From Loxodes magnus (lineage: Eukaryota; Ciliophora; Karyorelictea; Loxodida; Loxodidae), in contig CAMPDV010000380.1 of the NCBI GenBank assembly GCA_946699065.1, positions 186,001 through 250,000 on the forward strand: 64,000 bases of DNA, given 5' to 3'. The notes under the pieces are model-generated. The model had not been told where the DNA came from. It made no database searches and worked only from the letters and a program-made list of their open reading frames with translations. The position numbers and the translations under genes were made by a program. Position 1 is the stretch's first letter, and each line of letters begins with the position of its first letter. Shown here one piece after another: positions 4,095 through 57,405 of this stretch.

Positions 4095-6677
4095 TCACGT
4101 AATTCTATTCCTGTCCTACTCACTCATCTATATGTTGTTTGCTTCACAATTACTCAATCTCATTCCATAATCTAAATATACCCTATTCCAATCCAACTAC
4201 TTTATTATTAAATTAATTAAATTGACACCTACCTATCCTACAGATTCATCAACACTTAACAACCTCTATACATTCCATCTTCTCAAGTAGCCACATACAT
4301 CTCCAGATTAGATCCATCTTGAATCCTTTGATAATGCCAACGAAATTATTGCATATTCGTGGCCACTCAAAGTTATTACACACTAACCAGCTGAAAAAGA
4401 CCATATCTTTATTGTTAAGTCAGTAGAGGCTGATATGATATATCTAGAGTCCAAGGAGATTATTACCGATAAAATACGATTAGTATGTCCCTCTAAAGTT
4501 CTCAGGAGAGTACCATCAGGGAAATTCCAAATCTTTATGGTTGAGTCATTTGATGCTGATACTATATAACTAGAGTCAGAGGAGATTACTACCGAAGTAA
4601 CAGAAGAAGTATGTCCCTTTAAAGTTTTAACACATAAACTAGATAAAAAATCCCAAAATGAACTTTATAACTTTCATATCTTAATAGTTTTGTCATCAGA
4701 TGCTGATATGATATATCTAGAGTCATAGGAGATTACTACCGATCAAATAGTAGAAGTATGTCCCTCTAAAGTTCTCAGGAGAGTACCATCACAGAAATTC
4801 CATATCTTTATGTTTTGGTCAGATGATGCTGATATTATATATCTAGAGTCATAGGAGATTACTACCGAAGTAACAGAAGAAGTATGTCCCTTTAATGTTC
4901 TCAGGAGAGTACCATCACAGAAATTACAGATCTTTATTGTTTTGTCACGAGATGCTGATACTATATAACTAGAGACAAAGGAGATTACTACCGAGAGAAC
5001 ATAAGAAGTATGTCCGGATAAAGCATTTATTAAGGCAGATGTTTAATAATCTCAGATCTTAATTGTATTATCATCTGAACCAGTGATAATATATTGATTG
5101 TCAGGAGAGATAGCTATTGAGCTGATGCAGTCGGAATGACCTTTAAGTTCATGAGGATACTCAGTTTTTATATCGGAAAGATTAGCATTACTCAATACAC
5201 AACCGATAAACTTAGTATTCCTTAAATTACATTGATGAAAACTTGAATTAGAGAAATCACATTCAGTAAATATCATGTCCGATAGATCTGCTTGCACTAA
5301 TCTCATGTTGGAGAAATTTTATTATGATGCAAACTTAACATTCAGGTAGTTAAGTATCGTTATCACATTCGATGATAACTACGATACTTCGCATGATGTT
5401 CTAGATAACTCTAACATCTAATTTAATTTATTAGCCAGTTATGTATTAGATACCCTAGATAACTATAGTAAGACCGATGTTTAAAAGGATAAGCTTTAGT
5501 GATTTAAAGGAGATTACTTCAAAAATTAAATATCGATACTTTGTTGTTGTATTAGTTGGTTTAAGATTTGATATAACTATTCGAACGTTAGAGTATTGAA
5601 ATTCACTAAGGCTTACATTATCAAGTTAGGTTATTCTTACAATTATTGAACTTAAAAGTTCTATTACTCTAACTAAAGTTCAAGGATATATTGAAGTAAC
5701 TGTTAATCATTATTTTATAAAGTACTTGAAACTTCTTGGTATATTTTAAACTGAGATTAGTCTTTTTATTTGACTTATTCTTCACTTTATTATTTGTCTT
5801 AATTTTATTATCTTGGGGAGGCTTAGTCTTAATATAAGTATTATAATTATTGATTTTCCTATATTTCATATTATTGAAGATCCTAAACTTGTTTTTGCTG
5901 AAACTACTATTATTATTATTGGCCTTGACATAAACCACTTATTACATCTTATTAACTGAAATAAGATTCTATTAACTAATTAGCTTTTTACTGAGTTAAT
6001 ATCTAACCCTATGAATGATCTCTTAGGAAATTGAAGGCATTTAAGAGATAATACTGAATATTATATCGCAAACCTTAATCATTCAAATTTAAATTATATT
6101 CTTCCTTTATCACATTGATTTCTCTTAGTATATCCGTAAATTACTACTATTATTCTTATAGATAATAATGATTTGCCTACTGGTGGATATGCTAGCGCTA
6201 TTACTATTATTAAATGTTGAGTTCCGATAATCGATTCAGTAAACTCTTAATCTTATTCGCTCTTTAAGAATATTATTCTATCAAGATCTTGAATATTCAT
6301 TTAATTACCTACTAGCAGATATTATTCCACTACTAACTTACACCATAAATAACATTTCTTATAAACTATAGTTCCTCTTATTTCTAATTCTATTAGTCCT
6401 ATAACCAATTGATTTATTGATTTGACCATACTTAATCCAATGCAAGATGTTGTTGAGGCAACAAAGGTTATATTAGTTATTGTATCATAAAGTTTTGTAG
6501 ATCCTAAGGCCTGATATTAAAAGTTTGTTGGTGATTTCTACAATAAACCATTCCCGTAAGCTGATATATGGCACTTAGACAGTTGAAACATGAAACGCAG
6601 TTGCAAGAAAGTTGCTTGGCTTAAAACTAACCTTAATCGAAAGCATTTCTACAGTTAGGACACTGTTACATATCCAT
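4095..6677 (-). CDS. RING-like zinc finger / Gln-rich / pentapeptide-like / WD40 propeller protein
   Basis: One frame runs from ATG at 6677 to TGA at 4095-4097, about 860 residues, with TAA/TAG read as Gln and TGA as Trp. Residues 6-49 carry eight spaced ligands (C6, C9, C25, C27, C30, C33, C46, H49), a RING-like zinc-binding pattern. Residues about 60-440 are Gln-rich and helical. Residues about 445-500 hold pentapeptide-like A-D/N-L-S-x units (QADLSDMIF, NANLSD). From about residue 505 to 800 there are seven WD40 units with GH...SVVIS...DxTIKIW, one full propeller. In-frame TGA occurs at two WD40 Trp positions (5052-5054 and 4674-4676) and at 6297-6299. An ubiquitin-ligase or scaffold role is inference from the domains. 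The TGA at 6297 could instead lie in a 54-nt GTAAGT...CAAG intron, which would also keep the frame. The unit after 4676 has a short insertion before its FWDF. No homologue can be named. Confidence 0.85.
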
Positions 6678-6911
6678 TTATAAAAAATAAAATTAGTTTT
6701 AGTATTTAGAAACTAATTACAATGAAATAATAATTAAAATATTTAAAATTTAATTATTAAATTTAATTTATTAATAAAATACAAACTAATAAAGATTAAT
6801 TTCTCTTAAAAAATGAGGAAAAAGAGATGGTTTATACCCAAAATAAAGGGGACCAAATCACAAAAGATGGGCTCTCCTATCAAAAATCTGAAAAGATAAA
6901 ATAACTTTAGG

Positions 6912-7337
6912 TAAGAGATACTGAATCTCCAATCATCGAGACGAAGCCCGATGTCGTTATTTATTGTATCTACCTCAGGATTGGGTAATTTACGCGCCTG
7001 CTGCCTTCCTTAGATGTGGTCTCTCAGGCTCCGGAATTGAACCCTAATTCTTCGTTACCTATCACTGCCATACTAATCCAATACCATCGAAAACTGATAG
7101 GGCAGAAACTTGAATGACCTGCCATGCTTCATGGTCCTTATGTATTATAATTCTCACACAAACTAAATATCTAATAAACATTTTGCATGTATTCTAGAAT
7201 TACTACGATTATCTAACACACCATCAAATAAACTATCACTGTTTAATGAGCCTTCGCAGTTCCACGAGTAAATGCTTAAACATGCATGGCTTAGTCTTTG
7301 AGACAAACAAATGACTACTGGCAGGATCAACCAGATT
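6912..7337 (-). rRNA. 18S rRNA, 5' fragment (pseudogene)
   Basis: The minus strand starts at about 7337 with the eukaryotic 18S 5' end (CTGGTTGATCCTGCCAG) and continues through recognisable helices: AAGCCATGCATG, AGTTTCTGCCCTATCAG, GGAAGGCAGCAGGCGCG and AAATTACCCAATCCTGA. Similarity is lost at about 6912, some 430 nt into the gene and before the 530 loop. Normally invariant bases are missing: the stretch between CCGGAG and AGCCTGAGA is shortened, the GGCTA before CCACATC is lost, and several bases after CCAATCCTGA are absent. These deletions argue for a non-functional copy. It lies downstream of the 28S piece, separated by spacer, as the start of a next tandem unit would. Confidence 0.93.
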
Positions 7338-8084
7338 TATACTTTTCTATTTCCATTCACTTTTTCTATATACTCCTTTCCACCCCTTCATTTATGTTTC
7401 ATAACACTACCCTTCTAATATCCATACTACAGCCCACCTTTTACCCCTACTTGTCTTAAAAAATATACGCTAAGTCACCACTATAGCATCAAGATCTTTT
7501 TACCTTCTTAGCCATCCTTCATTTCTTATATATGCATTTCTCAATTTTAGATTCACGCCTTTGTCACACATAACTCATTCATTAAGCACATCATTTTAAG
7601 CTTACAAGTTTCTTTTCTAATTTTTATCTACTTATATTGAATCATCTTTTCTCAAACGGAAGCACTTAAAGTACTTAATACTTAAGTATTATCTTCTTCG
7701 TTCCATTCTTCATCTATCAAAACTTTTTCTTTTGCTTTCTCTTTTTTCAAATTTTCATAAATTTGAAATTTTCACTTCCTTTAGAGTCCAAGAAATCTTC
7801 TTATTTATGCTTTTTACTTTTCTTTTCATTTTTTTATCTCTATCCTTCTACTATTGATTAGCACTTAAAAATTCATCTCTTCTTCATCATCATTAGATAG
7901 TCAAGCATCAATACCTTTTCAAGTTGGGTCTTTAGCAGCTTTATTCAAATTTTCAAAAATTTGAAATTTTGTACTTAATAATAAAAGTAAGTTAAAGTAA
8001 GTAAAACCCCAGAAGAGATAGTAATGAGAATCTCGATGTAAAACCCTAGATAGATGATACAAAGATAAGTAACTAAAGGAAAGA
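7338..8084. other. Ribosomal intergenic spacer-like sequence
   Basis: It lies between truncated 28S and the start of the next 18S on the minus strand, where the intergenic spacer and external transcribed spacer of a tandem rDNA array would be. It is more C+T-rich on the + strand than the surrounding DNA. It includes two similar AT palindromes built on 'aaattt' (about 7745-7775 and 7940-7970). A promoter is expected here by position but cannot be recognised. Confidence 0.55.
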
Positions 8085-8200
8085 CTAGGTACTACTCGGT
8101 ACAACAAGGTACTACTAGGTAAGATTAGGTACTATTAGATACAACTTCTTTTTAACTAGGTACTAATAGGTACATGTACTCGGTACAACTAGGTACGACT
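8085..8200. repeat. Short degenerate repeats (GGTAC units) next to the 28S break
   Basis: About ten imperfect copies of a 10-14 bp unit around 'actaggtacaact' follow each other, directly abutting the point where 28S similarity stops. They probably belong to the intergenic spacer. This places spacer DNA where the last third of 28S should be. Confidence 0.8.
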
Positions 8201-10487
8201 GTGAGCGGTTTCTGTCCGTTCTGAGCTGGCCGTAGGACACCTGTGTTATCTTTTAACAGATGTACCGCCCCAGACAAACTCCCCACCTAACGGTTTCTCC
8301 CACCCAGTTACATTACTAAAAATTACTGCATGACAGGATAAGTAAAGTGACATTAGTAGTAGTATTTCAAGATCGCGGCTTCCCACTTATTCTACGCTTC
8401 CTATGCCACTCTACGCTCCAGACTAGAGTAAAACTCAACAGAGTCTTCTTTCCCTGCTGATTATGCCAAGTCCGTTCCCTTGGCAATGGCTTCACTAGGT
8501 AGTAGATAGGGACAGTAGGAATCTCGTTAATCCATTTATGCACGTCACTAATTAGATAACGAAGGCATTTGGTTACCTTAAGAGAGTCATAGTTACTCCT
8601 GCCATTTACTAGTGCTTCGTTGAATCTCATCACCTTGACTTTCAGAACACTGGGCAGAAATCACATTGTGCTAACATATCACCTTCACAATGCTTTGTTT
8701 TAATTAAACAGTTGGATTCCTCCTACCGCTCCAGTTCTGAGGTGGCCATTCGCCGCAGGGCCGACCACCTTCGGTCATGGCGACAAACTCCCACTTCCGT
8801 GAAAATTAAGTCAAACAATCCCTCCGGTGGAGACTTCTACCTGGCCCTCAGAGCCAATCTTTCTCCCGAAGTTACAGATCTAATTTGCCGACTTCCCTTA
8901 CCTACATTATTCTATTGACTAGAGGCTGTTAACCTTGGAGACCTGCTACGGTATAGGTACGAATACTCCTACATATTACAAACTGCAAGTTTCATGGATC
9001 GTAGTTGGTGCTCCAGACAACACATACAATTTACTACTCTTCCATAAATCACGCCTCCCTCGCCGTAATGGATCCAGGCGCACATGTATGTTAGACAAAA
9101 AAGACAACTCTCCCCCGACATATTGCAGCATATTGTGTCACCACTATGTAGTAAGTACCTATGGAATATTAACCATATTCCCTTTCCCTCATAAGGTTAG
9201 GATCGGGTGACTCATGATCCAGTGCGGCTCTCATGAAAACCTTCTCCACTTCAGTCTTCCAAGTTGGCATTGGAATACTTGCTACTACCACCGAGATCTG
9301 CACTAATACCTGCTCCATAACTCTTAACAGAATTACCTCCATGCAGATACTACGCCCTCCCACACCAGAGGCAGAGTATGGGCACCCGCCTTTCGAAACT
9401 TCCATTTTCAGGGCTAGTCCATTCTGTAGGTGAGTTATTACATACTGCTTAGCGGGTTCCGACTTCCATGGCCACCGTCCTACTGTCTTAATGGACTAAC
9501 GCCTTTACTTGCAGACGGGTTCTTTCGCCTTAACTCCGTTTCAGGTTGCCCTCATCGCCAGTTCTGCTTACCAGGATTGGCCCTCTAGGGACATTTATGT
9601 CATGTCACGTTCATTTATGAAACGTTACTGCACCCATTTAAAGTTTGATAATAGGAGGAAGGAGTGACTCCTCTCGAACCTCTATTTATTGGCTTTACCG
9701 GATAACACGAAAAGTCCCAGCTATCCTGAGGGAAACTTCGGAAGGAACCCGTATTAGATGGTTCGATGAGTCTTTCGCCCCTATACTCAGGTCCACAGAG
9801 CGATTTACAAGTCAGCACCTACACGAACCTCCAATCAGAGTTTCCCCTGGCTTCGTCCTGCTCAAGCATAACTTACCATCTTTCGGGTCCCAGCCATTTT
9901 TCTTACTCTACTTACGGGTCTCTACTGATGGTAGAGATCACTTTCATTTCGCCTACACATTTTCATGCACAGACTCACGATATAGCTAGACTCCTTGGTC
10001 CGTGTTTCAAGACGGGACGGTTCGTCCACTATATCCTTGCAATGCTTCTTTTCAAAGCTTTGCTCAGATTTATTGTAGACACAAAGCTTCCTCTCCAACT
10101 ATTTCAGGTCTTTTAACTCTCTTTCCAAAGTACTTTTCACTTTTCCCTCACGGTACTTGTGCACTATTGGGCTCTGGACGTATTTAGCCTTACAAGGAGT
10201 TTACCTCGCACTTTGGACAGCAATCCCAAGCTGTCCGACTCTTAGATAGTTTGGTTTTTAATCTAATTGAACCTCACGGGGTTATCACCCTCTATGATGT
10301 GTCATTCCTGACCAATTTGCTCAATCAAACCAACACCATTCCTCCCTAACTTAGATAATTCCGAAGATTTACAAGTGGGTTTTGACCGCTTCATTATCCG
10401 TTACTAAGGCCACCCTTGTTAGTTTCTTTTCCTCCGCTTACTGATATGTTTAAGTTCAGCGGGTTATCTTACTCCCCTCAAATCACA
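8201..10487 (-). rRNA. 28S rRNA, 5' two thirds (truncated pseudogene)
   Basis: On the minus strand the gene begins near 10487 with the canonical start region (CCCGCTGAACTTAAACATAT). It continues through GTACCGTGAGGGAAAAGTGAA, CGTCTTGAAACACGGACCAA, GACTCTCTTAAGGTAACC and GGGGCGGTACATCTGTTAAA, then stops at about 8201. By comparison with yeast 25S roughly the last third is missing, including the sarcin-ricin loop. Universally conserved peptidyl-transferase-region bases are changed: AAGGTAACC for AAGGTAGCC, GACTTGGCATAATCAGCAGG for the usual GGCTTGGCAGAATCAGCGG, and an extra T in GCCTTCGTTATC. Many changes are G-to-A or C-to-T, as expected of unselected decay. All standard-code ORFs here are artefacts of rRNA. 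Confidence 0.95.
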
Positions 10488-10553
10488 AATACATATACTC
10501 AGCTTTTTCACTTGGTAAAAGAATTCTTATTCACTTACATTTGTATTTTATAT
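10488..10553 (-). other. Internal transcribed spacer 2
   Basis: Short, AT-rich, non-conserved sequence between the 3' end of 5.8S and the 5' end of 28S. It is much shorter than typical ITS2. Exact ends are estimated from the flanking conserved sequences. Confidence 0.75.
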
Positions 10554-10702
10554 GATACTGAAAGGAACATACCTTGAGTTTCCCCAAGGTGCCTGTTGCG
10601 TTGGGAAACCTGATGACTCACGAAGTCCTGCAATTCGCATTGAATTTCGTGCTTCGCTGCGTCCTTCATCGACGCCAGAGCTTAGGCATCTATTGTTGGG
10701 GC
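10554..10702 (-). rRNA. 5.8S rRNA
   Basis: The minus strand carries the hallmark 5.8S core: CGATGAAGGACGCAGCGAAG, then ATGCGAATTGCAGGACTTCG and TGAGTCATCAGGTTTCCCAA. The copy is about 149 nt, normal for the molecule. The CATCAGGTTT segment departs from the usual CATCGAATCTTTGAACGCA. Together with the mutated neighbours this suggests it is not functional, but lineage divergence cannot be excluded. Ends are estimated. Confidence 0.92.
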
Positions 10703-10794
10703 TTTTGTTTTGTTTAGGTTTATATATTTGATAAAATGAAAAGCAGCATAAAGCTGTAAATAGATTTTGATTTTGTAATGTTTGATATTAATGT
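10703..10794 (-). other. Internal transcribed spacer 1
   Basis: About 90 nt of AT-rich sequence between the 18S 3' end (GGATCATTA) and the start of 5.8S. It keeps the normal order of a nuclear rDNA unit. Confidence 0.78.
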
Positions 10795-11812
10795 TAATGA
10801 TCCATCCGCAGGTTCACCTACGAATATCTTGCTACAACTTCTCCTTCCTCTAAGTGATAAGGTTCAATTAGCTTCCCATTAGTCCGAGAGGTTCACCTGA
10901 TTACTCGAAATCTGAGGAACGATGGGCGGTGTGTACAAAGGGTAGGGACTTAATCAGTGCAAGCTGATGACTTGTGCGTACTAGGAATTCCTAGTTGACG
11001 ACCAAGAATTGAAAGGGTCAATCCCAACTATGATGCAGTTGCAAGGTTGCTGGAATAGCTATATTTAGAAACTCATTGGCTGAGTCAGTGTAGCGCGCAT
11101 GCGGTCCAGGACATCTAAGGGTATCACAGACCTGTTATTGCCTCACACTTCCTCCAACTAAAAGCTGGAAGTCCCTCTAAGAAGACAACTTCCTCGGATA
11201 GAAAGAGTCTATTTAGCAGGTTGAGGTCCCGTTCGTTCGTTATCAGAATTAACCAAACAGATCACTCCACCAACTAAGAACGGTCATGCACCACCACACA
11301 TAAAATCAAGAAAGAGCTCTCAATCTGCCAATCCTTACTATTTCTGAACTTGGTAAGTTTCCCCGTGTTGAGTCAAATTAAGCCGCAGGTTCCACTCCTT
11401 GTGGTGTCCTTCCGTAAATTCCTTTAAGTTTCAGTCTTGCGACCATACTCTCTCCAGAATACAAAGACTTTGATTTCTCGGAAGGTGCCAAGGAGATTTA
11501 TACGGTCTCCCTGATTCCTAGTCGGCATAATTTATGGTTAAGACTAGGATGGTATCCAATCGTCTAGGATCCCTTTACTTTCGTTCTTGATTAATGAAAG
11601 CATCCTTGTCAAATGCTTTCGTAGTAGTTGGTTTTCAGTAAATCCAAGAATTTCACCTCTGACTACTGAGTACCAATGCCCCCAAATGTCCCTATTAAAG
11701 ATAGTAGATAGTCTCGCCAAGACTACCCACGAGCATTATTCCCAGCTGCAGTATTCAGACAGGAGCCTGTCTTAAACACTCTAGTTTCCTCAAGGTAAAG
11801 AGCCGCTAAAGA
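10795..11812 (-). rRNA. 18S rRNA, 3' fragment (pseudogene)
   Basis: The minus strand matches eukaryotic 18S from about position 730 to the 3' end: TTGAGGAAACTAGAGTGTTT near 11790, GGTGAAATTCTTGGATTTAC, GAAACTTAAAGGAATTTACG, GGAGTGATCTGTTTGGTTAA and GTAGGTGAACCTGCGGATGG ending at 10795. The decoding region reads ACACACCGCCCATCG where the near-universal form is CCCGTCG. Similarity is lost upstream of about 11812. With the 5' fragment at 6912-7337, about 300 nt of central 18S, including the 530 loop, occur nowhere in the window. Confidence 0.95.
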
Positions 11813-11839
11813 AATTAAATAAATTTTAACCGATTTAAT

Positions 11840-12500
11840 AATAAGGATTAAAGCACTTTAATGTTAAAACAAATTGGAACAGCTTGAACGAGAAAACTAT
11901 TAAAAATCATGGATCCAATTTATATGCAAGACTTATTATGAACACTGATAATAAAAGTCCAAACATTGTAAGAAGATCTAAATAAAAAGAAGAATTTGAA
12001 GATTTCATTGGAGATAAAGAACCTTACTACGGCAGACATTATAAACATCACAGGAAAAAAAATACTAAGAGATAGTCTTCAAATAATGGAAATCGAGATT
12101 TAAATTTTTCAAGAATAAGATGAAAAAAACTGGGTGAAGCAAGATTAAATAAGCACAGATATTAAAAGAAAACTGCAATAATTCTTACAAGAATCAAAAT
12201 AGAGTGGTTGTATTTCAATGTAAATAGGGAAAAGAAATAAGCAGACATAAATAAAACCAAAGGGAATAAGAAAATTATGCAGCATTTGCAAAAGTTGATG
12301 GTACCTATGACGAAAATGTCCGAAGCAAGCGAAAAAATAAGAGCAATCTGAAGATCGATCTGACATAAGGCAATAATTTTCTTTCCATCGAGGGATCAAA
12401 AGATCTGAAGGAAAAAATCAGATGGAAGCTTGAATTCTATTAGAAAAAAGAGACTCCCATAAACTTTAAGATCTTTTTAAACTTCTAACCGGAAGATATA
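11840..12500 (+). pseudogene. Gag-like retroelement ORF1 fragment
   Basis: Basic, Gln-rich translation on + directly after the 18S fragment. At 12278-12319 one frame gives CSICKSWWYLWRKC, with the exact C-x2-C-x4-[H]-x4-C spacing of a zinc knuckle but Tyr where His belongs. The same 14-residue spacing, with His, occurs in the gag-like ORF at 55867-55908. Two Trp in this stretch are TGA codons. A different frame at 11935-12010 (MNTDNKSPNIVRRSKQKEEF) also looks protein-like, so at least one frameshift is likely. RNA binding by a retrotransposon ORF1 is inferred. The assignment is tentative because all frames are open. Confidence 0.35.
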
Positions 12501-16190: not shown

Positions 16191-16259
16191 TGTAGATTTA
16201 GTTTTTCTTATTCTAATTACAACTGGTTAACCCCTATATTTATGTATGTCTAGTTATTT

Positions 16260-23903: not shown

Positions 23904-25513
23904 GCTTAAAATATTTTTTAATTAAGCAAAATTTATAAAATTTGATATTGCATTAAATTTTAAAATAAAAGCAAACGTTTAAATTAATATTATTAATTTT
24001 AAACTTTTTTTATTTTCATTCAAAGTTCTACAAATAATTAATTATTTTAGTTTTAAATTTAAATAAAAATATAAACTTTATTTATTTACTTTTGATATAA
24101 TAAAATAATTCATAAATTTAGCTATATTTACTATTTTTTTTATTCCATAGAATTATTTTATTTTTTTCTATTATTAGTCTATAAAATTAAGCTATTAATA
24201 TCTTTCTTTTATTTTTGCCAAGATTTTCTAGACCATATTTATTAGAAAGTTTAGATATCAGTAATAAATAGTATCAAACAGATATTTCAGCACCAAAAAC
24301 TTAAAGTATTTGAATTATTTCTTTCACAATTTGTTTATTTTAATTTTATTTAATCCATTAAAATAAATAATGCTATTTTATGAAAAACAAATAAACTTAA
24401 AAGTATTTTTAATTAAATTTCTTTAGCAATTTTAAAATTTAAAATTAATCAGATTTATATCAAATTTATTAAGAAATTATTTAAGATTAATAAAAGTTTT
24501 ATTCAAGATATAAAGTAAAACTTTTTTGAGCTTTTATTTAACAGAAATATTTCATATAATCTTTTAGAAAATATTAAAAAAATAAACAAAAGACAAGAAG
24601 AAATATGTAGATAAAACATAATTAAATCTATCTCAGAAAATCATTTTCTAAAATAACGTGCTAAGATGGTGATTTTAAATATAATTAAAAAAATTATATT
24701 TTCAAATGATTAAAATAAAGAATTTTAAAAATTATGATAATTTAAATAATAGCAAATTTATAAAATAAATATGATTAAAATATTTTTAGAGACTCTGTAA
24801 TAGATAATTGAAATTTCTTCAATGTTATTAGAAAGATAGTAAATTAATGAAATTACAAGAAAATACTAAAAAATAAGAAAAATAAATTAAAAAATTATTG
24901 ATTGAAAGAAATTTTTAAGATTTTAATCCTTTTAAATCATGCTTTATAATAATTTATTTACAAAAATGTATGGGAAACTTATGATTAGGTTTGCATAAAA
25001 AGATAACTGAAAAGGAATAAGAGATAATTCAGAAAAAATATAAAATCTATATCTAAGTTATATTATTAAACAAACAAATTCAAGATATTTTAATAGAAAA
25101 TTGGCAATCTCAGTAAAGTAGCTTACTCAATTTATTTTTCAGATAAAATGACAAGTCATTTCTGTGTTATAGTTAAATATTTTAAATAAATTAAAATTTT
25201 TGTTTAGGAAATACTGCAAAAAATATTTTTTTATTTTATCATTTAAATATTTTAGAATATTGTTATTATTATACAAACTAAGATTTAACGCTTTGCTAAA
25301 TTTTAGCACTTTTTGTTAATTAATTATTTAGAAAGTTAGTTATCATTTTTATAATTTTTTATGTTATAAATGCTTACTTTTTTTGCATACTCTTATAGTA
25401 TAATATTTTAATAATTACTAATAATTATTAGAAGACTCTGAGTTAAATTTTACTTTAAGATGAATAAATTAAACACTTTTTAGTAAAATTTATGAAAAAA
25501 CAAAAATATTTAA
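23904..25513. repeat. Long repeat R1, copy 2
   Basis: About 99% identical by eye to 1-1610 and in the same orientation. Unlike copy 1 it runs straight into repeat R2 at 25513/25514. The left boundary ('agtgcttaaa') coincides with the first base of the window in copy 1, so the true left limit of R1 is not defined here. Confidence 0.93.
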
Positions 25514-28500
25514 AAATTATAATTTAAAATTTTATATTTAGCAATATTTGTGATAAAGATAAATATTAAAAAATATTAAAATCTTACAAATCTAGCATCG
25601 ATTGACTTTTTAAATAAAGAAATTCAACAAAAAAATATAAAAAATTAAAATTGTTAAAAATGCTAAAAAATGCTAAAAAATTCTCTAACTCTCAGATTTT
25701 TATAATTAGCTTATTCGAAGATAGTTTATTTTTACTATTTTTCATCAATTATGGATGTATATATTGTAAAAGTACTAATTATTTTACTAATCTCAAATTT
25801 TAACTTCAGCTTAAATGGAAACTTTTAAATATTTGAATAAATAAGTAAACAAATTATTTAATTTTTTATTTTCTAATTCTTTTTCTAAACTTAATATGAA
25901 ATCCCGTAAAATGTTTTAAAAGTAATTTAATTCATATCAATATTAAGATTCTAACTTTAAATATTAAGTAAAGTAGCAAAATTAATTAAAATTTTGAATT
26001 AAAAACATATTTATTTTTTAATTTTATTGATTAAAATATACCTATAAATTAAAAAATATGAAACTAGGACCATTTTCTATTAAAAGAAGATTTAAAGTTT
26101 ATTTTAGAACAATAGAAATACAAATAAAATAAGATTAAATTTGTTGATAAATTTCTAATTAAAAAAATAAAATATAAATTATAGTAAATTTGAATATCAC
26201 TCTTGATTATTTAAATATTTTGAATCTAAAACTAAATTTTGTTGTTATTAAATTTTATAAAACTTACTCATTTATAATTACAAATTATAAGCTAAAATAA
26301 TATTATTATAATAATAGTATTTATAATTTATTTATGTATCTTATATTTATTATTTTTATAAATTTAATTTCATAGAAAAATAATTAATAATAATTAGTAT
26401 TTAATAATTAATGCAATCGTTTCTAATTTATAATTAAAATCAAAGTTGTCTAATTATAGAGAGATTGGAAAATGCTATTTTTTACTTAAAATAGATAATT
26501 AAAATTACATAAGAAAAAACTATTTATTTATAAAATAAATTATATCAATAGAGTATAAATCCCTTCTTATTTTTAGTTTACAAATATCCCTTTCTATTAA
26601 AAATCATTTTTTAAACATTTTCTACGAAACTAATTATAAAGGTATCTTTTGTAATCAATTAAAAACTCTATCAAGTTGATAAGTAGTATTTATACTTTTA
26701 TCGAAGAGAATTTTTTTCTAATTATATTATAGCAAGTGGTTATCATACTTTCAAATATATATAAAAATTAAAATATAAATTACATGCATTTTAAAGCCTT
26801 TGCATTATAAAAAATGTATTTTATAGAAATTAATTTAAACAAGAAATTATAAAGTAAATAAAGAATATAATAAATAATTTTACATCATGGATAGATTCTT
26901 TTTATCTATTATAAAAAATATTTAATTTCTTATTATATATTAAAATAATATATTTTTATATTTTACAAAATAGTTTTAATTAATTTTTCATTAAACTTTA
27001 GCAAAATATTTATAAATTAAAAAATATTTAGATATCAAATTTAAAATATTTAATTTGTAAAATGATTAAAAATGTAATAAAACTATAATATTATTTTAAG
27101 CTATAATTAGAAATTAAAGAAATTATAAAATTTATGTATCCTATTTAAAAATGATAGTTACTTCTTACTTAATTTTAAACTATAATTTACAATAACTGCT
27201 AATTTTTTATTATTATAATTATCTATATTATAAAATAAATATAAATTATATTAGCTTTATTATATTAATAAAAATACAAAAAAATGAGTGAGGAAATAAA
27301 GTAAATCTTAGTATTAAAAAAGAAGATATTAATAAGATTTAAATTATTATATTTAATTAATTTTAATTTTATATTACTTTATTATAGTATAAATATATAA
27401 AATTAATTCTTTTTACCATGAAAGATAATTAACTTTAATTTTTAACTATATGCAATATATCACAAATATTATATATATATACACTTTATATTCATAAACA
27501 AAAATAATTTATTTAAAAATTATAGTTTATAAATGTTATAATACTTTATCACTTTTAATTATATTATATTTAAAATACAATGTTTCATAGATTAAATGGA
27601 ATGTAAATTTAATAATCATTAATATAATTTGCCTTTTTATTTAAAAGTAAAAGTTTATTTGTTAGTTTAATTATTTACCCTCCTAACTATTTTACCTGTC
27701 TTATAGTTAATCTTGCAACTTATTTCTTTCTCCAGATTTATTTAAAGATTAATGAAAGAAAAAATAAATATGCTAGTATATAAAAATTATTTGATTATTA
27801 TGCTAAAACATAGATACTTAACCTAGAAATAATATATTGCTTTATATTATATGATAATTAAATTCTAGTCAGATTTAATTAATTTTACATTTAAAAAAAT
27901 TAACACTTTTTAATTTAGACTCATAAATTTAAAATCTTTATAGCTTTATAATATTAGCAATTTGGTATAAAGTTGTAATGTATTTATATAAAATGTAGAT
28001 TTTAGTTAAAAAGTTATAAATTAAAATAAAAGATAAAGACTAATTCTGATTAATTAGTTATCTATCTTGTTATTAATTAAACTACTAATAAAACATATTA
28101 ATAGAACTAGCAACTTTCTTCTAAATAATTAATATTTATTATAATAATTCTATAATTTTTAACCGCAATTTATAATATCTTTTGAATGAATTAAAGTAAT
28201 TAAATATTATATTATAAATGATTTAAATATAATATCAAACCATAAAATACTTTTATAAATATTAAAAGTAAATATTAATATTTTTCAGTTTTTAATTATT
28301 TTAAATGTTCACTAGCTTTATTTTATTATTTTCTTTATTTATTCTATCATCTTGTTAAAAGGCTTAAGTTATCTTTTTTTTATATTTTAATTAATTATCT
28401 CTACTTTTTAAGATAAGAGAACTTTGAGTGATATATCTTAACTAAATATGCTTATTAAAATTAAGTAAAATAGAATTTAATTTTTTGATCTTGTAAAAAT

Positions 28501-28980
28501 GAATTTAATCCTTTCCTCTTCTAATTACTTATTTGCTCAATTTAACCTGTATTTTAGACTAGGATTAATAGTTCATTTTTGAAATTATAGGCAGATTTGA
28601 CTGACAATTCGCTTATTTAAAGTTTTTTATTATTCTTTATATAAAAAATCTTACAATTTTTGTTCAATTAAGTTAAAAATTTTAAATTTATATCCTAAGA
28701 CAGTCATAACATCAATTTCACTTTCTTATCCTCAAAATTATCGGGATTTAATTTATCTTTCTTATCCATCTCTGATAACAATCTAATTTACCGAATTCAT
28801 TTATTTACATCAAAATTGATCTTCATTCAAGCTTTGCTTAATTCTAAAAAAGATAATTTCTATAAGAACTGAGATGTTTAATCTTATTATGATCTAAGCT
28901 ATCATTACCTCAAGAATTTCCTTCATTTACTATTTTAAATGTTTTTCTACTTTCATTAAGCCAATTATATTTTTAAGTTT
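25514..28980. repeat. Long repeat R2, copy 1
   Basis: Matches 60620-64000 in the same orientation over at least 3.4 kb. Identity is lower in the first kilobase, with small indels, and about 99% near 28400-28980. The second copy lacks about 95 bp corresponding to about 27930-28025, between short similar sequences, so that is a simple deletion. The second copy is cut by the window end, so R2 may extend further right. I see no terminal inverted repeat and no recognisable ORF. Confidence 0.93.
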
Positions 28981-39663: not shown

Positions 39664-41043
39664 ATGTAATCTGAAATGTCCTAGAATACTAAATGTCTTT
39701 AGTGTCAAGGAAGTTTCGATGGGTAGATTAAAATCCCAGTGTTGTTACCTTGCAATCACAACATATGTTATACCTGTGTCACTGATTAGTTTTAGAAAAG
39801 TTAGGCATTCAAATGCTTTGACTAAAATTGCTAAAAAGTTCATAAGATTCATCCTTTAAAACTTCAGGAAGACACTTAGTTACTCAAACGTCTTGAACAA
39901 ACGAACCTCATGGACAATATAACGATGCTATAGAATCAATCATCAAGAGTTCGTCAAGCTTAAACTTAAATGTCCAAGGTCTAATTTCATTTTATCTAGT
40001 AGTTGATAAAGCACGTGAGTACTTATTTGTTTAAGGAGAATATCAGCTTAAAAAGACAGTTGATTTATCAGGATAAGTAAATCTAATAATAGTTGAAGTT
40101 TTTTAAAATCTAGAAATAGATGATGGATAAAAAAGGGAGCAGCTAGTAGTAGATCGTTTATTAAGAATCTCCATAGAATGAGTAATAAGTTTCCAAATTG
40201 ATAGCTGATGTTTAAAGAATCATCTAGAAGAGCAATCAGGTATCGGTTAAAGTTTTTGAGGAACTAGACTCGTGCAAATTTAATCTAACTTAAGTGATCT
40301 AGGAAAATAATTACTTAAAGAATGAGATGTAAAAGTTGAGTACTTAAATCTAAAATCAATAATAGTAGTTATCATCTATGCAAGTTAAGTAAATCGAATA
40401 GTAACAAGTAAAGCCTTAGGTGATATAGCCTAAGCAAATTCAATAACCTCAAAATATCCCTGCTAAGCTATAGGACATCTAGATAACTATTGTATCGCCA
40501 AACAATAGAACGGTATCGTTATCAGTAAAATAAGAGACTACTATCGGTTAGATAAAGCAATAGATCTAAGCTTAAACTAAGTTATTGCCTGCCGGTTTGA
40601 GTATCGTTAAGAATAAGGTTATATTGGATGACGGTTAAACAGTAGCGAGTTAGAAGTTATTGAATGGTGAGAGGTTGCAAATGGAATTTAGTAAGTTCAA
40701 ATTTAATTTTCTTAAATAATAATATAGACTGTAAATAGATTTTATAACTTTAATAAAGAGAAAGGTGAGTTTAAGATTTACTATATTTAAAAGGATGTAA
40801 GTCTTAAATAATTTCAATAATAGGGAGTAAGGATTAATTATAATATTTAGATGGTAAGTTAGTATTTAATAACAATTTAGAATGTAAGTTTCATTTTAAA
40901 TGTTTTGCGATAAGTTTGTAAGTATCGATGTTAATAAATTACGATTAAAGGGGGTAAATTTCATTTTACTAAATTACGTTTAAAGGGCGTAAGTTTCATT
41001 TTAATAATTAACACTTAAGCATGTAAGTTAAAGTTTAAGGTGA
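39664..41043 (+). CDS. RING-finger (C3HC4) protein, probable E3 ubiquitin ligase
   Basis: ATG at 39664 opens a frame free of TGA until 41041-41043. The N-terminus has a canonical RING: C11-x2-C14-x15-C30-x1-H32-x2-C35-x2-C38-x12-C51-x4-C56, including the segment LLPCNHNICYTC. The middle (about residues 60-330) is Gln-rich with coiled-coil-like stretches, many Gln coming from TAA/TAG. RING proteins usually recruit E2-ubiquitin; that role is inferred from the family. Beyond about 40720 the sequence becomes the degenerate GTAAGT repeat region, and the formal stop lies in the first clean 32-bp unit, so the real C-terminus is probably near 40700-40750 or is reached by splicing. The start is supported by the RING lying 10 residues in and by AT-rich upstream DNA. 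Confidence 0.8.
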
Positions 41044-41712
41044 AAATGAAGTTGGTAAGTTAAAGTTTAAGGTGAAAATGAAGAATGTAAGTTAAAGTTT
41101 AAGGTGAAAATGAAGAATGTAAGTTAAAGTTTAAGGTGAAAATGAAGTTAGTAAGTTAAAGTTTAAGGTGAAAATGAAGAATGTAAGTTAAAGTTTAAGG
41201 TGAAAATAAAGATTGTAAGTTAAAGTTTAAGGTGAAAATGAAGATTGTAAGTTAAAGTTTAAGGTGAAAATGAAGCATGTAAGTTAAAGTTTAAGGTGAA
41301 AATGAAGTGAGTAAGTTAAAGTTTAAGGTGAAAATGAAGTTGGTAAGTTAAAGTTTAAGGTGAAAATTAAGCATGTAAGTTAAAATTTAATGTAAAAATG
41401 AAGTTGGTAAGTTAAAGTTTAAGTTGAAAATGAAGAATGTAAGTTAAAGTTTAAGGTGAAAATTAAGCATGTAAGTTAAAGTTTAAGGTGAAAATGAAGA
41501 TCGTAAGTTAAAGTTTAAGGTGAAAATTAAGCATGTAAGTTAAAGTTTAAGGTGAAAATGAAGATTGTAAGTTAAAGTTTAAGGTGAAAATGAAGATTGT
41601 AAGTTAAAGTTTAAGGTGAAAATGAAGCATGTAAGTTAAAGTTTAAGGTGAAAATGAAGATCGTAAGTTAAAGTTTAAGGTGAAAATGAAGTGAGTAAGT
41701 TAAAGTTTAAGG
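41023..41712 (+). repeat. 32-bp minisatellite with GTAAGT in every unit
   Basis: About 21 tandem units of 32 bp with the consensus core GTAAGTTAAAGTTTAAGGTG followed by AAAATGAAG and three variable bases. Variation is concentrated in the last three positions before GTAAGT (aat, ttg, att, cat, gtg, atc). The period is not a multiple of three and TGA occurs twice per unit, so it is not protein-coding. More degenerate GTAAG(T)-containing units extend left to about 40770 and right to about 41890. It lies at and just beyond the 3' end of the RING-finger gene. Confidence 0.95.
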
Positions 41713-41719
41713 TTACATA

Positions 41720-43690: not shown

Positions 43691-43699
43691 CAAAAATTT

Positions 43700-48230: not shown

Positions 48231-48234
48231 AAAA

Positions 48235-48266
48235 TTAATTTAAATTAAATTAAATTAAATTTAAAC
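48235..48266 (-). repeat. Simple-repeat 3' tail of LINE-B
   Basis: A short run of 'aaatt' units lies about 100 bp beyond the ORF2 stop on the minus strand. Short tandem 3' tails are typical of many non-LTR elements, so this probably marks the 3' end of LINE-B. Confidence 0.5.
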
Positions 48267-48367
48267 TAAAAGAGTTTTTTGACGTCTTTAATTGCAAGAA
48301 TTGCTTCTTTCAATTATAGACGTTAGTAAATGTTTTTAAATTGTTTTTTAATCTTGCTTACATTTCA

Positions 48368-51300: not shown

Positions 51301-51755
51301 TTACTATCGTAAGCATTTTCAGGATTATCACCGAAACCTTATAAAAGAGAATTGAAATTTCCCATTAGTATATGTGGATTATCATTATATAAATTCAGCA
51401 ATGTATTTAGTTGTTCATAAGCTAAATCTTTAAGATCTTAACTTTTTCCACTATCAGGCATGTAACAAGACGTGATTAAAATATTATCCAGTTTAATTGT
51501 TATGAATCTATTTATTTCTTTTTCAACTTATATATGTATTTCTGTACTATTAAATTCTTCTCCTACAATTAATCATACACCTCCTCCTTTTCTTAAGTTC
51601 TTAAAATATGTTTTAAATCCATTTATCAATATTGGAGGAAAGTAATCTTTTTATCAGGTTTCGTTTATTGATAAAATATCTATACTGTTATCTCTGATAA
51701 ATTCTTCAATATTCAAGCACTTGCTCGCTATTCCATTAATATTTATATGTCCCAT
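48368..51755 (-). CDS. Non-LTR retrotransposon ORF2: AP endonuclease + reverse transcriptase (LINE-B), one frameshift
   Basis: The minus strand from MGHININGIASKCL (51755) carries an APE-type endonuclease: DILSINET-W (Glu motif, Trp = TGA at 51654-51656), LRKGGGVW, ILMGNFNSLL and FSDHIPITVDF (near 51110). The reverse transcriptase follows: LIDVEKMFDSI (motif A, near 49950), VMQGSSHGPVLAL (near 49780), GWADDLILLS (catalytic AspAsp at 49641-49646) and EQVTYLGVILH (near 49430-49460). The C-terminus has CTCGEYETFEHIFKC, a CxC-x7-H-x4-C motif, and ends in tandem TGA TGA at 48365-48370. One frame change is needed at about 49200-49245. All other motifs are intact, so this is a young or recently active copy. 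WADD replaces the more usual YADD. Clade not determined. Confidence 0.9.
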
Positions 51756-54288
51756 CTTTATTTTTTAAATTTATTAGTCCTTTCTAATTTTTTCCGAACC
51801 TGCAGGTAGACCACTTTCGTAAATGCAAATGCTTTTCTATCCTTATTGGTTAATCTAAATATGTACTAATCTTTTTCCATACTCAGGATGTTAATGAAAA
51901 TATTGTATCAAAATATATATTACTTACGTCGTATATTTTTTAAGTAGCTTTCTATCTATATCAATTTTACTTTTCACACTATCACATGTACCTTATTCTA
52001 AATATTAAGTAACTGTGACATATCTACCCTATATATTGTATATTTCGTACTATGGACGTCTCCAAGTTTCGGATTTAATAAACTTTTAAAGTTATAGACT
52101 AGTCAGATTGAAATAACATATTATTTAATCACACTATTTTTTATTATTATGTTTACTCATACACTTTGCTGGCGGAATTGCTCTATCTTCTTCTTCATGT
52201 TTCCTTTTAAGAATATTAAGATTAATATTGGAAGATAAGGTTTAATTCTGATAAATAGCATCGATCGAATCTGTTTAGTTTTATTAATCTTTTTGTCATC
52301 TTTTAGTAGAATAATTAAATATATCTGTTTTCAAATTTTAATTAAGTTTTTAAAACTCTTCTATTTTTATCTCAAGTGTCTACATATTTTGGGTACTTTA
52401 AATGAATTTTAAGTTGAGTTAGTGATATTAATGCTATAGTAAAACAAAATCTTCATCTGGCAATTTTATTTGACAGTATTAGTTATTATGTTATGTTATA
52501 ATAGTATTATTTTATGCCTCCTATTAGTTATTTTAAGTTTACATTAACTTGTCTTGCTTGATTATATTTGTTTGAATAAATTTTTGACACAAAAAACTGT
52601 TTATTATTCATTTATATTATCTGTTTAGATAATACTATCCTTTGTTTAAATATTTCCATATAAAGTCTAAGTTTATGCATCTACTAATTACTTCTTCTAA
52701 AATTACTATTAATTACTAAATTCTTTTATATGTTAGATTTAATTCTAAAATAATTCTTTATACATTTTAATTTCCTTATTTTTTAATAAAATTTAATTTT
52801 GAAAAGCTATATTTATTTCATAGTTTTATTATCTTTACTTATCTAATTCGATTTTAAAAGTTAAAATTTCCATTTAAGCTTTCTATTCTTAATCTATAAA
52901 TTACTTATTTTAGTTTTATAATTTTTAATATTAAGAATATAACTCTTGGAGTTAAATTTCGGTTATTATTTTTTATTAGGTAATTTGTTGAAGTAAATAT
53001 TAGTTCTATTCTAATATAGTCTATTGATATCCTTGCTAAGTTTTATTTAGAAAGTTATCTATTTCAATTTAAGTAAAATTTCTAATTTTATTAAAGTTTT
53101 GGCATAGTGAATTATTTACTCCTATCATTTAAGCTTAAGTAAAGCTTTAATTAACATTGGCTTCAATTTGAATCTCTTAATTAGATTATATTTCATCTAT
53201 TGAATTGACTTAATTCTCATAGTTTTTCTATTATATCTAAATTTCTTGAAATATACTAATTATTTCATCTGTTTAAACTATTTAGTTACTGTAATAAGTG
53301 GAGAAGTTTGTTTAAGTAATTTTATGAACTAGTTATTTTGATAGCATTTTTTGTGATATTGCTATATATCAGATTTGATTGACTAAAAATTGTTCTATAA
53401 TTGTTTATATTTCTAATAAATTTTATTTATATAAGTTTTATAATATATTTTGGATATTTCTTAGTTAATTATCAATGTTTAAATATCTCGTTCATATTTT
53501 GCTTTTATATTAATTAGCATTTCATTTAATTATTGGTTCTTATTTATAAGTCTTTTATATTATGTTTAAGTTCTTTTATTTCTAAGGTAAATAAGTTCTC
53601 ATTATACTAATGAATTATTTGATTTTATATTACATTTCTTAAATCAGCAGTTTAATTTTAAGGTTGCTTGCTCTGAAGATCAGGTAAATAATGATTATTT
53701 GAATTATCAGGATTAGTAATATTATATTATTTCTGACTAATTTCATTATTTGAAATTTAATAGAATTGTTAATTAGTATTATTCAAAAATTAATCTTAAG
53801 TTTATGTTATTTTTGACTGCAATACTAGGATATCTTTATTTTAATTTTAATTAGGATTTGAAGGTATATCTTTTGAATTCTAACTATCTAAGATAATATC
53901 TTATTTTTGGAAAGATTTGTTAGGTAATCGTTTCGTATCTTTCGCGGTATTATTTTAGGCGGTTAATCTGTTCATCTATTTATAGGTTGATTTCACTTTC
54001 ATAATAAGCAACAATTAATATCCACGTTGAAGAGAGTTCCTAAGTAGTTTTAATGGGACGCATATGAATTTGTTTTCCGGTTTTTGACTCCAATTTTTAA
54101 GTAGTTATTTTAATAAATTCATTATTAGGTTTACTTATTTAATTTGTAGTTACTCCAAATCTTTCGTTTGAAGATTTTAATGCACCTGCCAATGCTTTTC
54201 CTATGAATTTGCAGCTTTTTGAAATTAATTAAAGAAGAGTCACTATTAAAAACTAATAAATTCTATATTTCATCCATTTTTTCTCCAT
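51756..54288 (-). CDS. LINE-B ORF1-like region (coiled-coil protein), probably frameshifted
   Basis: Minus-strand ATG at 54288 opens a coherent frame (MEKKWMKYRIYQFLIVTLLQ, then KALAGALKSSNERFGVTTNQ) continuing into helical, charged sequence (INLQIDEQINRLKQYRERYE) near 53960-54000. The far end, about 52230-51756, is again coherent (NILKRKHEEEDRAIPPAKC, then GLPAGSEKIRKD) and enters the first Met of ORF2 without a stop. The two ends differ in frame, so at least one frameshift lies in between. Position and coiled-coil character fit ORF1 (nucleic-acid-binding gag-like protein) of a non-LTR element. No CCHC knuckle or RRM was recognised. The lack of a TGA before ORF2 suggests a fused or re-coded ORF1-ORF2. 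Confidence 0.6.
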
Positions 54289-54309
54289 TTTCTTAATTCT
54301 ACTCTATTA

Positions 54310-54950
54310 GTTCACCTTTATACCTCGTTTCTTTTACAAATTATCACTATATTTTTTTATTTTATAACTTCTTTTATACTTTAACATAAATTATTAACAC
54401 ATTTATTTTAATTATAAACTAACTTTTATTTTAATCTTTTCATTTAATATAACTTTTTATTTATTTCTATTTTATTTTTTTTTCGTCTTTCTTATTTTTA
54501 CTTTATACAACTAATTTTTTTTTAGTTAAATATTTTATATTTTATACATTTTATATATTTTATTTTTCATTTCTTTTTCTTTTTTTCAATTTTAATCTGT
54601 TTTTTCTTTTTTTTTTCGATAATTTTGATTTTTCATTATTTCGTTTTTATTCTAAATTTAATTAATTTACGATTTTAGATTTATATGTTTTTTTTTAATT
54701 TTCAAGTCAGTAATTTGTTTCATTTAACTTTTACTTTTTTTAATGAATCTCTTATAAAATTTATTTATGTGCATTTTTTTTATTTTCTTTTATTCATAAT
54801 TTGTTCAAGCGTTTTAAATAATTATGAAAATGAAAATAAGATATTCAATTATTTTATTTTTATTTTTATTTTATTTATCTACTATTTTGTTTATTATTAC
54901 TCTAATTTTTTTTAATTAAATAGTCTTTAGATTCTTTTTTTTTATATAAA
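54310..54950. other. T-rich tract, possible LINE-B 5' untranslated region
   Basis: The + strand is strongly T-rich (A-rich on the LINE-B sense strand). No motif. The hydrophobic ORF at 54685-54915 is a translation of poly-T and is not supported. Confidence 0.4.
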
Positions 54951-55130
54951 AAAACTGTTAGCTTCCACAAGGTTTTTTACTACCTCCTCAATGTGGGAGA
55001 GAAAACCTGAAGTGCTTTCTTCTACCACTTCTTTGCTTTTTAGTCTAACCTTCTTTATATAAATTGAAATCAGACTTATATTCCATGCTCTCAGACTACT
55101 TAAATCCCTTTTCATTGATCAAAGAAACAC

Positions 55131-55991
55131 GATATAATAATACACTCAACGGAAAAAGGATACCAATATGTCTATTATTGGACGGACTTCACTAAAAGGA
55201 GGAGCATAGATTAAGAAAGAAATGAAGTTGTAAAAAAAGTCTCAACCGAAGCTTTAATTTAATAAAAGAATTAGCAACTAATCTCAGCCAACGTCCCGGA
55301 AGACTAAACGGTAAGAGTCTGTTTAAATGCCTATGATGATCTATCAGATATTATGGTCGCAGTTTATTTATACCACTATCTTGAAAATACTGATTTAGTG
55401 AGAAAAAAGTTATAGACTAGAAAGTAATACAAGTGTTTAGGAATTAAATATGGAGCGAGTACGGAAAAGCAGAAGCCAAATTCATCGACAAATAAAACTA
55501 AAAGTATATTTAATATTCAAAAATAAAGAAAGATACTAGCAATTCGCTTAATTTAGGGAATGAACATTCAAAGGAGTTAGAATTCCTATCTTAGCAAGAA
55601 ACTAATTAGAATACTTTGACATTCATAACTACCCAGTTTACTTCATAATAGACGATTACTCAAACATGAAGAAAGTAATGGAAGTAATGAGACAATATGG
55701 AAAATCTAGAGATGAGGTATAGCATACATACCCAAACACTAAAATGCTAGCAGATAGTAGTGATGTGTGCTTAGATTTAAAGGATATAGACGAAGCAAAG
55801 AGAATATGCGAAGTATTAGACCTGAACGGAAACAAAATGAGAATACAGCACCCAGTAAATTTTATCTGCTTTTTATGCAAATTGAAAGGGCACATAGATC
55901 AACAATGCAGAAGGGTGGAAGCAGCAAAAAGGAAAAATTAAATAAAAGATAATTAGAAATGCTTAAAGGATAAATGAAATTAACAATAAAC
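55131..55991 (+). pseudogene. Gag-like ORF1 of a non-LTR element (LINE-C) with zinc knuckle
   Basis: The + strand encodes VPEDQTVRVCLNAYDDLSDI and VAVYLYHYLENTDLVRKKLQ (about 55290-55420), then after a one-base frame change near 55510, GVRIPILARNQLEYFDIHNY and PVYFIIDDYSNMKKVMEVM. It ends with a perfect CCHC knuckle, CFLCKLKGHIDQQC (55867-55908), and a Lys-rich tail. The segment before the knuckle has the beta-alpha-beta look of an RRM-like fold, the usual ORF1 arrangement in many LINEs. No ORF2 follows; the TIR element starts about 290 bp downstream, so the retroelement is truncated or interrupted. The true start is unclear; coherent translation may begin as early as 54960. Confidence 0.72.
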
Positions 55992-56299
55992 AAACCTGAA
56001 TTAAAAGCAAATCAAGCAAATAAGAGGATAATTAAAGAAGGAGAGTATATGATTATAGAGGAAGCAAGGGAAGAAGAGAAGGAAATAAAACTGAGGAGAA
56101 TAGGAAAATAATTAAAACAACTAAACAATTATATAATAAAAATACTTTTATGCAAAACGAATAAATAAGAATTATTTTTCATTAAAATTGAATTGGAATT
56201 ATGTAAGGCAGATGAATAGAGAAATCTTCATAGGACTAAATTAAATAAAATAGAAAACAAAAAAATTATATAAATAATAATAAATAAATAAATAAATAA

Positions 56300-56632
56300 A
56301 TTTGATTATAGAGCGCGTAGCACTCTCATTGGTGCGCAGCTCTTTAAAAAAAAATGTTTCATACTGACAAGAATGTTTGTTACTGATAAAATTATCAGAT
56401 ACTGATAAACCTTGTTCAATACTGGTATAATTATTCAGTACTGATAAAAATGTTCAATACTGATATAATTTTAGAATACTCGTAATCTTTAATACTTGCT
56501 GGAGGTCCAAGGACATGGAGGATTGTGTCTCATCGCATCACCAAAGCAGAGGACGACATGTGTCAATTATGGGTACTTAACTTCCCCAACCTCTGATGAA
56601 AATGACCTTGTTGCTCACCTTCGAACAACTAT
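56300..56632 (+). repeat. Left terminal inverted repeat
   Basis: The reverse complement matches 58046-58352 with very few differences. Positions about 56350-56480 contain six degenerate 18-20 bp subrepeats centred on 'atactgataaaa'. The outermost part has unusually GC-rich 'gagcgcgtagc' and 'ggtgcgcagctc' for this window. Confidence 0.93.
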
Positions 56633-56714
56633 ATTAATAAATAAAAATATATATATAATAAGATATAATATAAAACAAATCAAAGAAAAAAAAAGGATAG
56701 TATAGGATAATTTA

Positions 56715-57405
56715 TGGTAAAAACGCTCTACTCTAATGGATCCTTATGCCCTTACAAAGTCTATATACACTCACCCTTATCAAAGTTTCAAATCTTGATT
56801 GTTCTGTCACCAGAACCAGAAAACATAACACTTGAATCAACACTTAGCTGAATACTACATAAAGCATATGCATGACCTTAAAGAGTACGAATACACTAAA
56901 CAGAAGAGAAGTCCCATATCTTAATAATCCTGTCATCCGAACCCGATACTATATACTTATTATCCTTAGACACTATCACCGATCTATCTCAGTCTGAATG
57001 CCCAATAAGAGTTCGCACAAGCTGACCAGCCTAGAAACCCCAGATTTTTACAGTTGTATCAGAAGATCCCGATATAATATATCTAGAGTCATAGGAGATT
57101 ACTACCAGTCTAACTATATCAGTATGTCCCGCTATAGTTCTTTGGAGATCGCCATTGTGGAAATTTCAGATCTTTATAATTGTGTCATCAGATTCTGATA
57201 CGATATAGTTAGAGTCTTGGGATATTACTACTGATGAAGCATTTGAAGTATGCCCCGTTATAGTTCTTAAAAGAGTACCTGTCTGGAAATTCCAGATCTT
57301 TATCGAATATTTAGGCCATCCAGAACCTGATATAATTCAATTCAAGTCACTTGATATGGCTACCGATAACACAGGTGAAGTGTGACCAGTGAGGACTTAG
57401 TCTAA
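56715..57405 (-). CDS. WD40-repeat protein fragment inside the TIR element
   Basis: The minus strand encodes five WD40 units plus part of a sixth: LTGHTSPVLSVAISSD, ITGHTSNASSVVIS, AGHTDIVRLVVIS, GHSD-W-DRSVIVS, GHAYALCSIQLS, then GHKDPLE. TGA is found at two IKI-W Trp positions (57166-57168, 56788-56790), at GHSD-W (56989-56991) and at 57337-57339. No start codon is evident. A 22-nt GTATTT...TTTTAG segment just upstream (about 57400-57425) could be a tiny intron, giving KVKDQVLTGHT. The stretch 'atatctagagtcataggagattactacc' type sequence is nearly identical to units in the gene at 4095-6677, so this is a paralogous, probably captured fragment. Too few units for a complete seven-bladed propeller. 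Confidence 0.75.

Follow-up and report, generated by a model that had tools for sequence, protein, structure and literature searches.

Glutamine UAA and UAG codons, UGA as tryptophan or stop, and candidate UAA stops in the karyorelict ciliate Loxodes magnus

The window analysed here is a stretch of 64,000 nucleotides (nt) from a Loxodes magnus contig (CAMPDV010000380.1, positions 186,001 to 250,000 of the forward strand), and our subject is the code in which its genes are written and the codons at which they end. On the minus strand, a WD40 gene starts with an ATG at 6677 and runs for 860 codons to an apparent terminal TGA at 4097-4095; its N-terminus is Cys-rich, its middle is Gln-rich, and its C-terminal part holds seven blades. 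A second WD40 piece, also on the minus strand, extends from about 57405 to 56680 and comprises five blades plus a partial sixth, the first in-frame TGA past the blades lying at 56682-56680. On either side of it lies an inverted-repeat arm of about 305 bp; the two arms are 100% complementary and 1471 nt apart, and the whole (56284-58364) appears to be a fold-back or terminal-inverted-repeat-type element carrying a WD40 fragment. A long interspersed nuclear element (LINE) contributes a minus-strand open reading frame (ORF; 51755-49050) with an endonuclease (PF03372, 51743-51114) and a reverse transcriptase (PF00078, 50201-49428). On the plus strand, a gene of 351 codons (39664-40716) matches RING and ubiquitin-like domains, both Pfam matches being weak and just below the curated cut-offs, and no homologs of it were found at E ≤ 1. 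We find that in this genome UAA and UAG (together UAR) mean Gln and UGA means Trp, and that the same genes have TGA at Trp columns as well as at their apparent ends.

The composition of the reading frames already points in this direction. Translated with NCBI table 11 and ATG, GTG or TTG starts, the window contains no ORF of at least 150 amino acids anywhere. The frame of the WD40 gene holds 55 TAA, 35 TAG and four internal TGA codons; with the terminal one, this makes five TGA, compared with 15-27 in each of the five alternative frames (two on its own strand, three on the opposite one), and 90 UAR codons, compared with 43-65 in those five. Fewer TGA and more UAR is what one expects of a gene that uses TGA sparingly and UAR as ordinary codons. 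The UAR share of Gln codons is 0.73 in the WD40 gene, 0.77 in the LINE ORF, 0.77 in the RING/ubiquitin-like gene (54 of 70, in a gene with no Trp codon), and 0.58 (7/12) in the short WD40 piece.

The initial annotation had placed five TGA codons at conserved Trp positions of the WD40 blades. Their coordinates and identities are correct, and each is in frame; the strand, left unstated there, is the minus strand. The claim about position holds for the four that follow an IKI motif. Three of these, at 5054-5052, 57168-57166 and 56790-56788, fall in the Trp column according to a WD40 profile based on foreign homologs (654 distinct units), in which that column has a Trp emission of 0.84. The fourth, at 4676-4674, directly follows KTIKI and precedes a 7-residue insertion, because of which the profile favours the TGG at 4655 instead. 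The fifth, at 56991-56989 (GHSD-TGA-DRS), is not in the Trp column; it occupies unit column 5, a position at which several residues occur, Trp among them (emission 0.10). Further in-frame TGA codons lie at 4745-4743, in unit column 7 (TI-TGA-SVVIS; absent from the earlier list), and at 57339-57337 in the second piece. When the Trp column is assigned by adjacency to the preceding residues, which are IKI in 10 blades, VKI in one and LRR in one, the 12 blades of both stretches show TGG 7, TGA 4 and TGT 1, in agreement with the earlier statement that other units carry TGG at the homologous position. The profile, which places 11 blades, gives TGG 7, TGA 3 and TGT 1. With stops masked as X, the six TGA codons aligned to the profile score best as Trp (+17.3), followed by Tyr (+2.0), and under random placement the chance that three or four of seven internal TGA codons would fall on 12 of 594 codons is about 2e-4 to 3e-6.

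The same masking was applied to the LINE, using a profile of 58 distant homologs (20-32% identity). There, TAA scores best as Gln (+19.1, then Asn +10.7), as does TAG (+4.3, then Glu +3.0). Pooling the profiles gives Trp for TGA (13.2; next Tyr, 0.5), Gln for TAA (17.3; next Asn, 8.4) and Gln for TAG (8.5; next Lys, 5.6), and the procedure correctly recovers 42 of the 48 sense codons.

What settles the code is a test on tubulins across the genome, for which we searched the assembly that includes the window (705,730,643 bp in 7843 contigs), fetched 80 of 150 scored matches and obtained 78 distinct aligned coding sequences. The beta-tubulin L034, with X at every stop, aligns to the solved tubulin chain PDB 6u0h_B with 399 of 424 identities at the other residues; all 12 of its aligned TAA and all three TAG codons face Gln, and all three TGA codons face Trp. 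Together with the masked profiles, this bears out the earlier assignment of TAA and TAG to Gln. Over the 78 alignments, 124 of 181 TGA codons fall on seven Trp columns at which paralogs have TGG; these columns were defined by alpha and beta references from the L. magnus genome itself, and for three of the four beta columns 6u0h_B confirms the Trp opposite a TGA. At the W101 column of beta-tubulin, for instance, we count TGA 37, TGG 11 and TTA 2. As a separate observation, one contig (C64, 619-934 kb) holds twenty-one tubulin matches, and those read are near-identical alpha-tubulins.

At the other end of genes, TGA is the rule. Searching up to 80 codons from a C-terminal marker column, we found an in-frame TGA for 66 of 72 distinct readable tubulin ends; the six genes lacking one in range are L035, L044, L051, L064, L066 and L067, and L078 does not align there. 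Among 31 histone-fold matches, 29 ends could be read, and 27 of these have TGA, the other two being the H3 variants L099 and L102, which reach TAA; both counts were made from DNA alone. The content of guanine plus cytosine (GC) changes within a few codons of the TGA for most tubulin genes; the change-point placement failed for L035 and L066, where the boundary was judged from 30-nt blocks. L034, L036 and L049, which have internal Trp TGA codons, also end in TGA, so that one codon carries two meanings within a gene. The earlier claim that UGA is Trp or stop thus stands for the Trp columns and for most tubulin and histone ends, while the rule of termination at UGA only may be incomplete in view of some apparent UAA ends.

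The last 10 codons of 60 distinct TGA-ended tubulins contain no TAA, no further TGA, eight CAA and four TAG, which is weak evidence of depletion because tubulin tails are homologous. In the window, the terminal TGA of the WD40 gene sits at a fall in GC from 0.34 to 0.21 (about 100 nt on each side); upstream of it the nearest TAA is 71 codons away, and TAG occurs at 7, 11, 34, 46 and 57 codons. The four coding stretches of the window have a GC of 0.26-0.37, and the 3' side of the WD40 gene is near 0.2; figures given in the L. magnus paper are 33.5% for coding sequence and 18.6% for the 3' side (PMC11441545). The GC drop past the end of the coding sequence, the reverse transcriptase and endonuclease domains of the LINE, and the eukaryotic ribosomal DNA (rDNA) all fit the initial suggestion of a karyorelict such as Loxodes.

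At a handful of genes the coding sequence appears to end at TAA, and from these genomic cases we lean towards UAA being a working minor stop at L. magnus messenger RNA (mRNA) ends, in which case UAA would mean Gln or stop, UGA Trp or stop, and UAG, fully sense, Gln. The window offers one candidate: an in-frame TAA TAA follows the RING/ubiquitin-like gene at 40717-40722, at a composition boundary. The coding signal of a codon model ends near 40686, GC falls to 0.17, and the first in-frame TGA comes only at 41041. The two H3 variants, L099 on contig C34 and L102 on contig C327 (221605-222204), both reach GEKHLTDM-TAA, and their sister L100 reads GEKQLTDV-TGA. In L102 the end is TAA TAA TAA, GC drops there from 0.50 to 0.08 (24-nt blocks), the fetched stretch continues for 47 codons past the first TAA without a TGA, and a search for GT..AG introns of 15-40 nt, with donors between 30 nt upstream and 40 nt downstream of the GEK codons, found none that would rescue a TGA end. 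GC falls from 0.46 to 0.08 at the TAA of L099. Over 95 codons, L099 and L102 are separated by 38 synonymous and 5 nonsynonymous differences; this makes both look like genes under selection that diverged long ago, and still they have the TAA in common. Among the tubulins, L064 is full-length, has no off-column TGA in its aligned part and ends EEENY-TAA, with GC falling from 0.33 to 0.03 and no GT..AG intron of 15-35 nt leading to a nearby TGA. L035 ends SEDEELL-TAA, where L037 and L040 end SEDEELL-TGA; L066 reaches SESEEY-TAA, and in L044 and L051 a TAA lies near the composition drop. A minor UAA stop would also explain a published pattern, since in L. magnus UAA is depleted for about 20 codons before stops and UAG is not, with no cause given in the section of the paper that describes it (PMC11441545).

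The alternative that survives best is that these genes have no UAA stop: translation may continue to a TGA further on, an intron may have been overlooked, or the original stop may have been destroyed by mutation. We regard this as a serious possibility, if the less probable one. A review presents the Loxodes release factor eRF1 as UGA-only, with two altered motifs jointly needed for this specificity (PMC4695839), and a transcriptome study likewise assigns UGA as stop codon to every karyorelict it includes (PMC6935857). In L099 a TGA lies only five codons past the TAA. Introns leading to a TGA could be drawn in several genes: one of 37 nt in the window gene (GTAAGT..ATATAG, 40691-40727), one of 28 nt immediately past the TAA in L035, several candidates in L044, introns of 17 and 29 nt in L051, and introns of 17-20 nt upstream of the TAA in L066. 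TGA codons off the Trp columns occur in L035 (two), L044 (one) and L067 (three). However, such an account has difficulty with L102, with its triple TAA, GC drop and neither TGA nor rescuing intron in reach, with the age and apparent selection of the TAA common to the two H3 variants, and with L064.

The code of Condylostoma magnum is NCBI table 28. If the window came from an organism with such a code, perhaps a heterotrich, all three codons, UAG included, would be both sense and context-dependent stops, and TAA at some gene ends, including the one at 40717, would be expected. We consider this very improbable, as no clear TAG end was found among the 101 ends read (72 tubulin and 29 histone, from two gene families). 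The one doubtful case is L067, which has TAG TAA at its end and looks decayed. In addition, TAG comes close to TGA stops: the nearest ones before such stops are 4, 6 and 12 codons away, several of the four TAG codons mentioned above being in a single gene, L061.

A number of observations speak against UGA as Trp, or qualify the evidence for it, and have to be set beside the tubulin result. The nine aligned TGA codons of the LINE show no Trp preference (best His, +1.6; Trp, -4.1), and 57 of the 181 aligned tubulin TGA codons, spread over 31 loci, lie off the Trp columns. In WD40 arrays elsewhere in the genome, column 30 of the units scored is TGG or TGT and never TGA, and TGA is found mainly at the variable columns 5 and 7; this test is biased, because the best-scoring matches were read and stops score low. 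The WD40 and LINE homologs were gathered with queries already translated with Gln and Trp, a mild circularity of which the tubulin-PDB comparison is free. As for the WD40 stretches of the window, the placement of their TGA codons is far less surprising, with a probability of 0.2 to 0.05, if they arose by single-step nonsense mutation. The youngest blades differ about equally at the three codon positions (for example 5, 6, 7), so the WD40 gene may be relaxed or diversifying. Since random placement is rejected, a single-step nonsense origin is not, and the blades diverge flatly, the window alone would leave room for WD40 pseudogenes. That its TGA codons are nonsense mutations under a plain ciliate code (UAR as Gln, UGA as stop) agrees with the single step from TGG to TGA and with the second copy being a fragment inside an inverted-repeat element, but is very improbable and is refuted as an account of the code, given that otherwise full-length tubulins carry TGA at three or four Trp columns and that L034 is close to solved tubulins; this WD40 gene itself could still be a pseudogene.

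Taken together, we put the probability at about 95% that this is L. magnus DNA in which UAR is Gln and UGA is Trp or stop according to position. On this reading the window is nuclear DNA of this karyorelict ciliate, UAA and UAG are translated as Gln, and UGA is Trp inside genes and a stop at their 3' ends. Position would decide: far upstream of the mRNA end transfer RNAs (tRNAs) would win, and near the poly-A end the release factor would, possibly recognising UAA there as well. In the literature, termination is proposed to hinge on how near the poly-A tail is (PMC4967479), and sensing of the mRNA end is a proposal of Swart et al. A near-cognate tRNA-Trp(CCA) with a 4-bp anticodon stem that reads UGA as Trp is reported for Loxodes (PMC13092985). 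ARAGORN finds no tRNA genes in the window.

Other features of the locus can be described briefly. Directly after the RING/ubiquitin-like gene, a 32-bp tandem repeat with about 21.6 copies and far more G than C occupies 41022-41713. Upstream of the LINE ORF, an open frame of 338 codons (52331-53347, minus strand), 54 of them UAR, is very Gln-rich and by eye coiled-coil-like; it has no Pfam match and is perhaps ORF1 of the LINE. A second, apparently decayed LINE endonuclease match (PF14529, 15898-15680, minus strand; 26.9 bits, cut-off 27.4) sits on the side where the 18S fragment of the rDNA starts, and thousands of PF00078 and PF14529 copies are reported in the L. magnus paper (PMC11441545). 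Neither the LINE nor the WD40 proteins had a relative in scans of viral contigs. The rDNA (6883-11940, minus strand) amounts to just under one unit, cut inside the 18S gene, in the order 18S 3' part, 5.8S, 28S and then the 18S 5' part, with the 530 loop missing from the window; it would be an array edge, a rearranged copy or an assembly break. A very short 18S gene was considered and rejected, as its 5' third turns up beyond the 28S gene and the conserved 530 loop is absent. Long AT-rich direct repeats (2-1610 with 23906-25514, and 25502-28980 with 60616-64000) are 99% and 94-98% identical, respectively, and meet near 25510. Six-frame Pfam scans covered about 40 kb of the window, the other 24 kb or so being the ends, rDNA and low-GC stretches, and eight chosen frames were scanned in addition. 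Apart from the WD40 genes, they turned up only the LINE-type domains, two in number, of which the second falls short of its curated threshold, and the weak hits to RING and ubiquitin. The automatic codon model was too weak to find genes with, picking out no more than three coding stretches.

WD40 sequences are abundant elsewhere in the genome, where 98,993 first-look candidates were obtained and 150 scored. Matches (L001-L011) extend over tens of kb of single contigs (C1503, C119, C9, C620, C272 and C1832), and the pieces read from them are arrays of 126-bp units. One of these, L009, has a 10-kb stretch that stays in a single frame; it contains 70 matched units and two TGA codons but neither TAA nor TAG. 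Variation in L010 and L011 clusters at certain columns, including 5, 7, 23 and 25, and the arrays look as if repeats were being homogenised while some positions diversify.

The use of UAR as Gln and of UGA as Trp or stop in Loxodes is already in print, and the central claim of the initial annotation is therefore known and our result a confirmation of it. It is shared with the karyorelict code of Loxodes and Parduczia (NCBI table 27), as are the short AT-rich 3' side and, in the published description, the scarcity of UAA and UGA, though not of UAG, before the stop (PMC11441545). The difference lies in the stops, UGA being the sole stop in the published code while several genes here appear to end in UAA. 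The new part looks to be UAA as an additional minor stop, for which we found no report in Loxodes in the open-licence PMC literature. Condylostoma magnum is alike in using UAA as Gln and as a stop near the mRNA end, and a tandem UAA end is described there (PMC4967479); UAG also stops in that species, whereas we found no clear UAG stop. The nonstop code of Blastocrithidia is alike in UGA as Trp and in UAA being both sense and stop, but UAR is Glu there and Gln here, and it is UAA, not UGA, that the corresponding passage names as the termination signal (PMC12153298).

If UAA stops are real, gene prediction would be affected, given that the stop state of the published L. magnus gene finder is UGA only (PMC11441545), and UGA-only gene models would overrun some genes, among them histone variants. 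It would also mean revising the code table written for Loxodes, and the species would stand between a code in which only UGA stops and the Condylostoma code, in which all three codons do. This would also provide a testable prediction on the competition between release factor and tRNA at mRNA ends.

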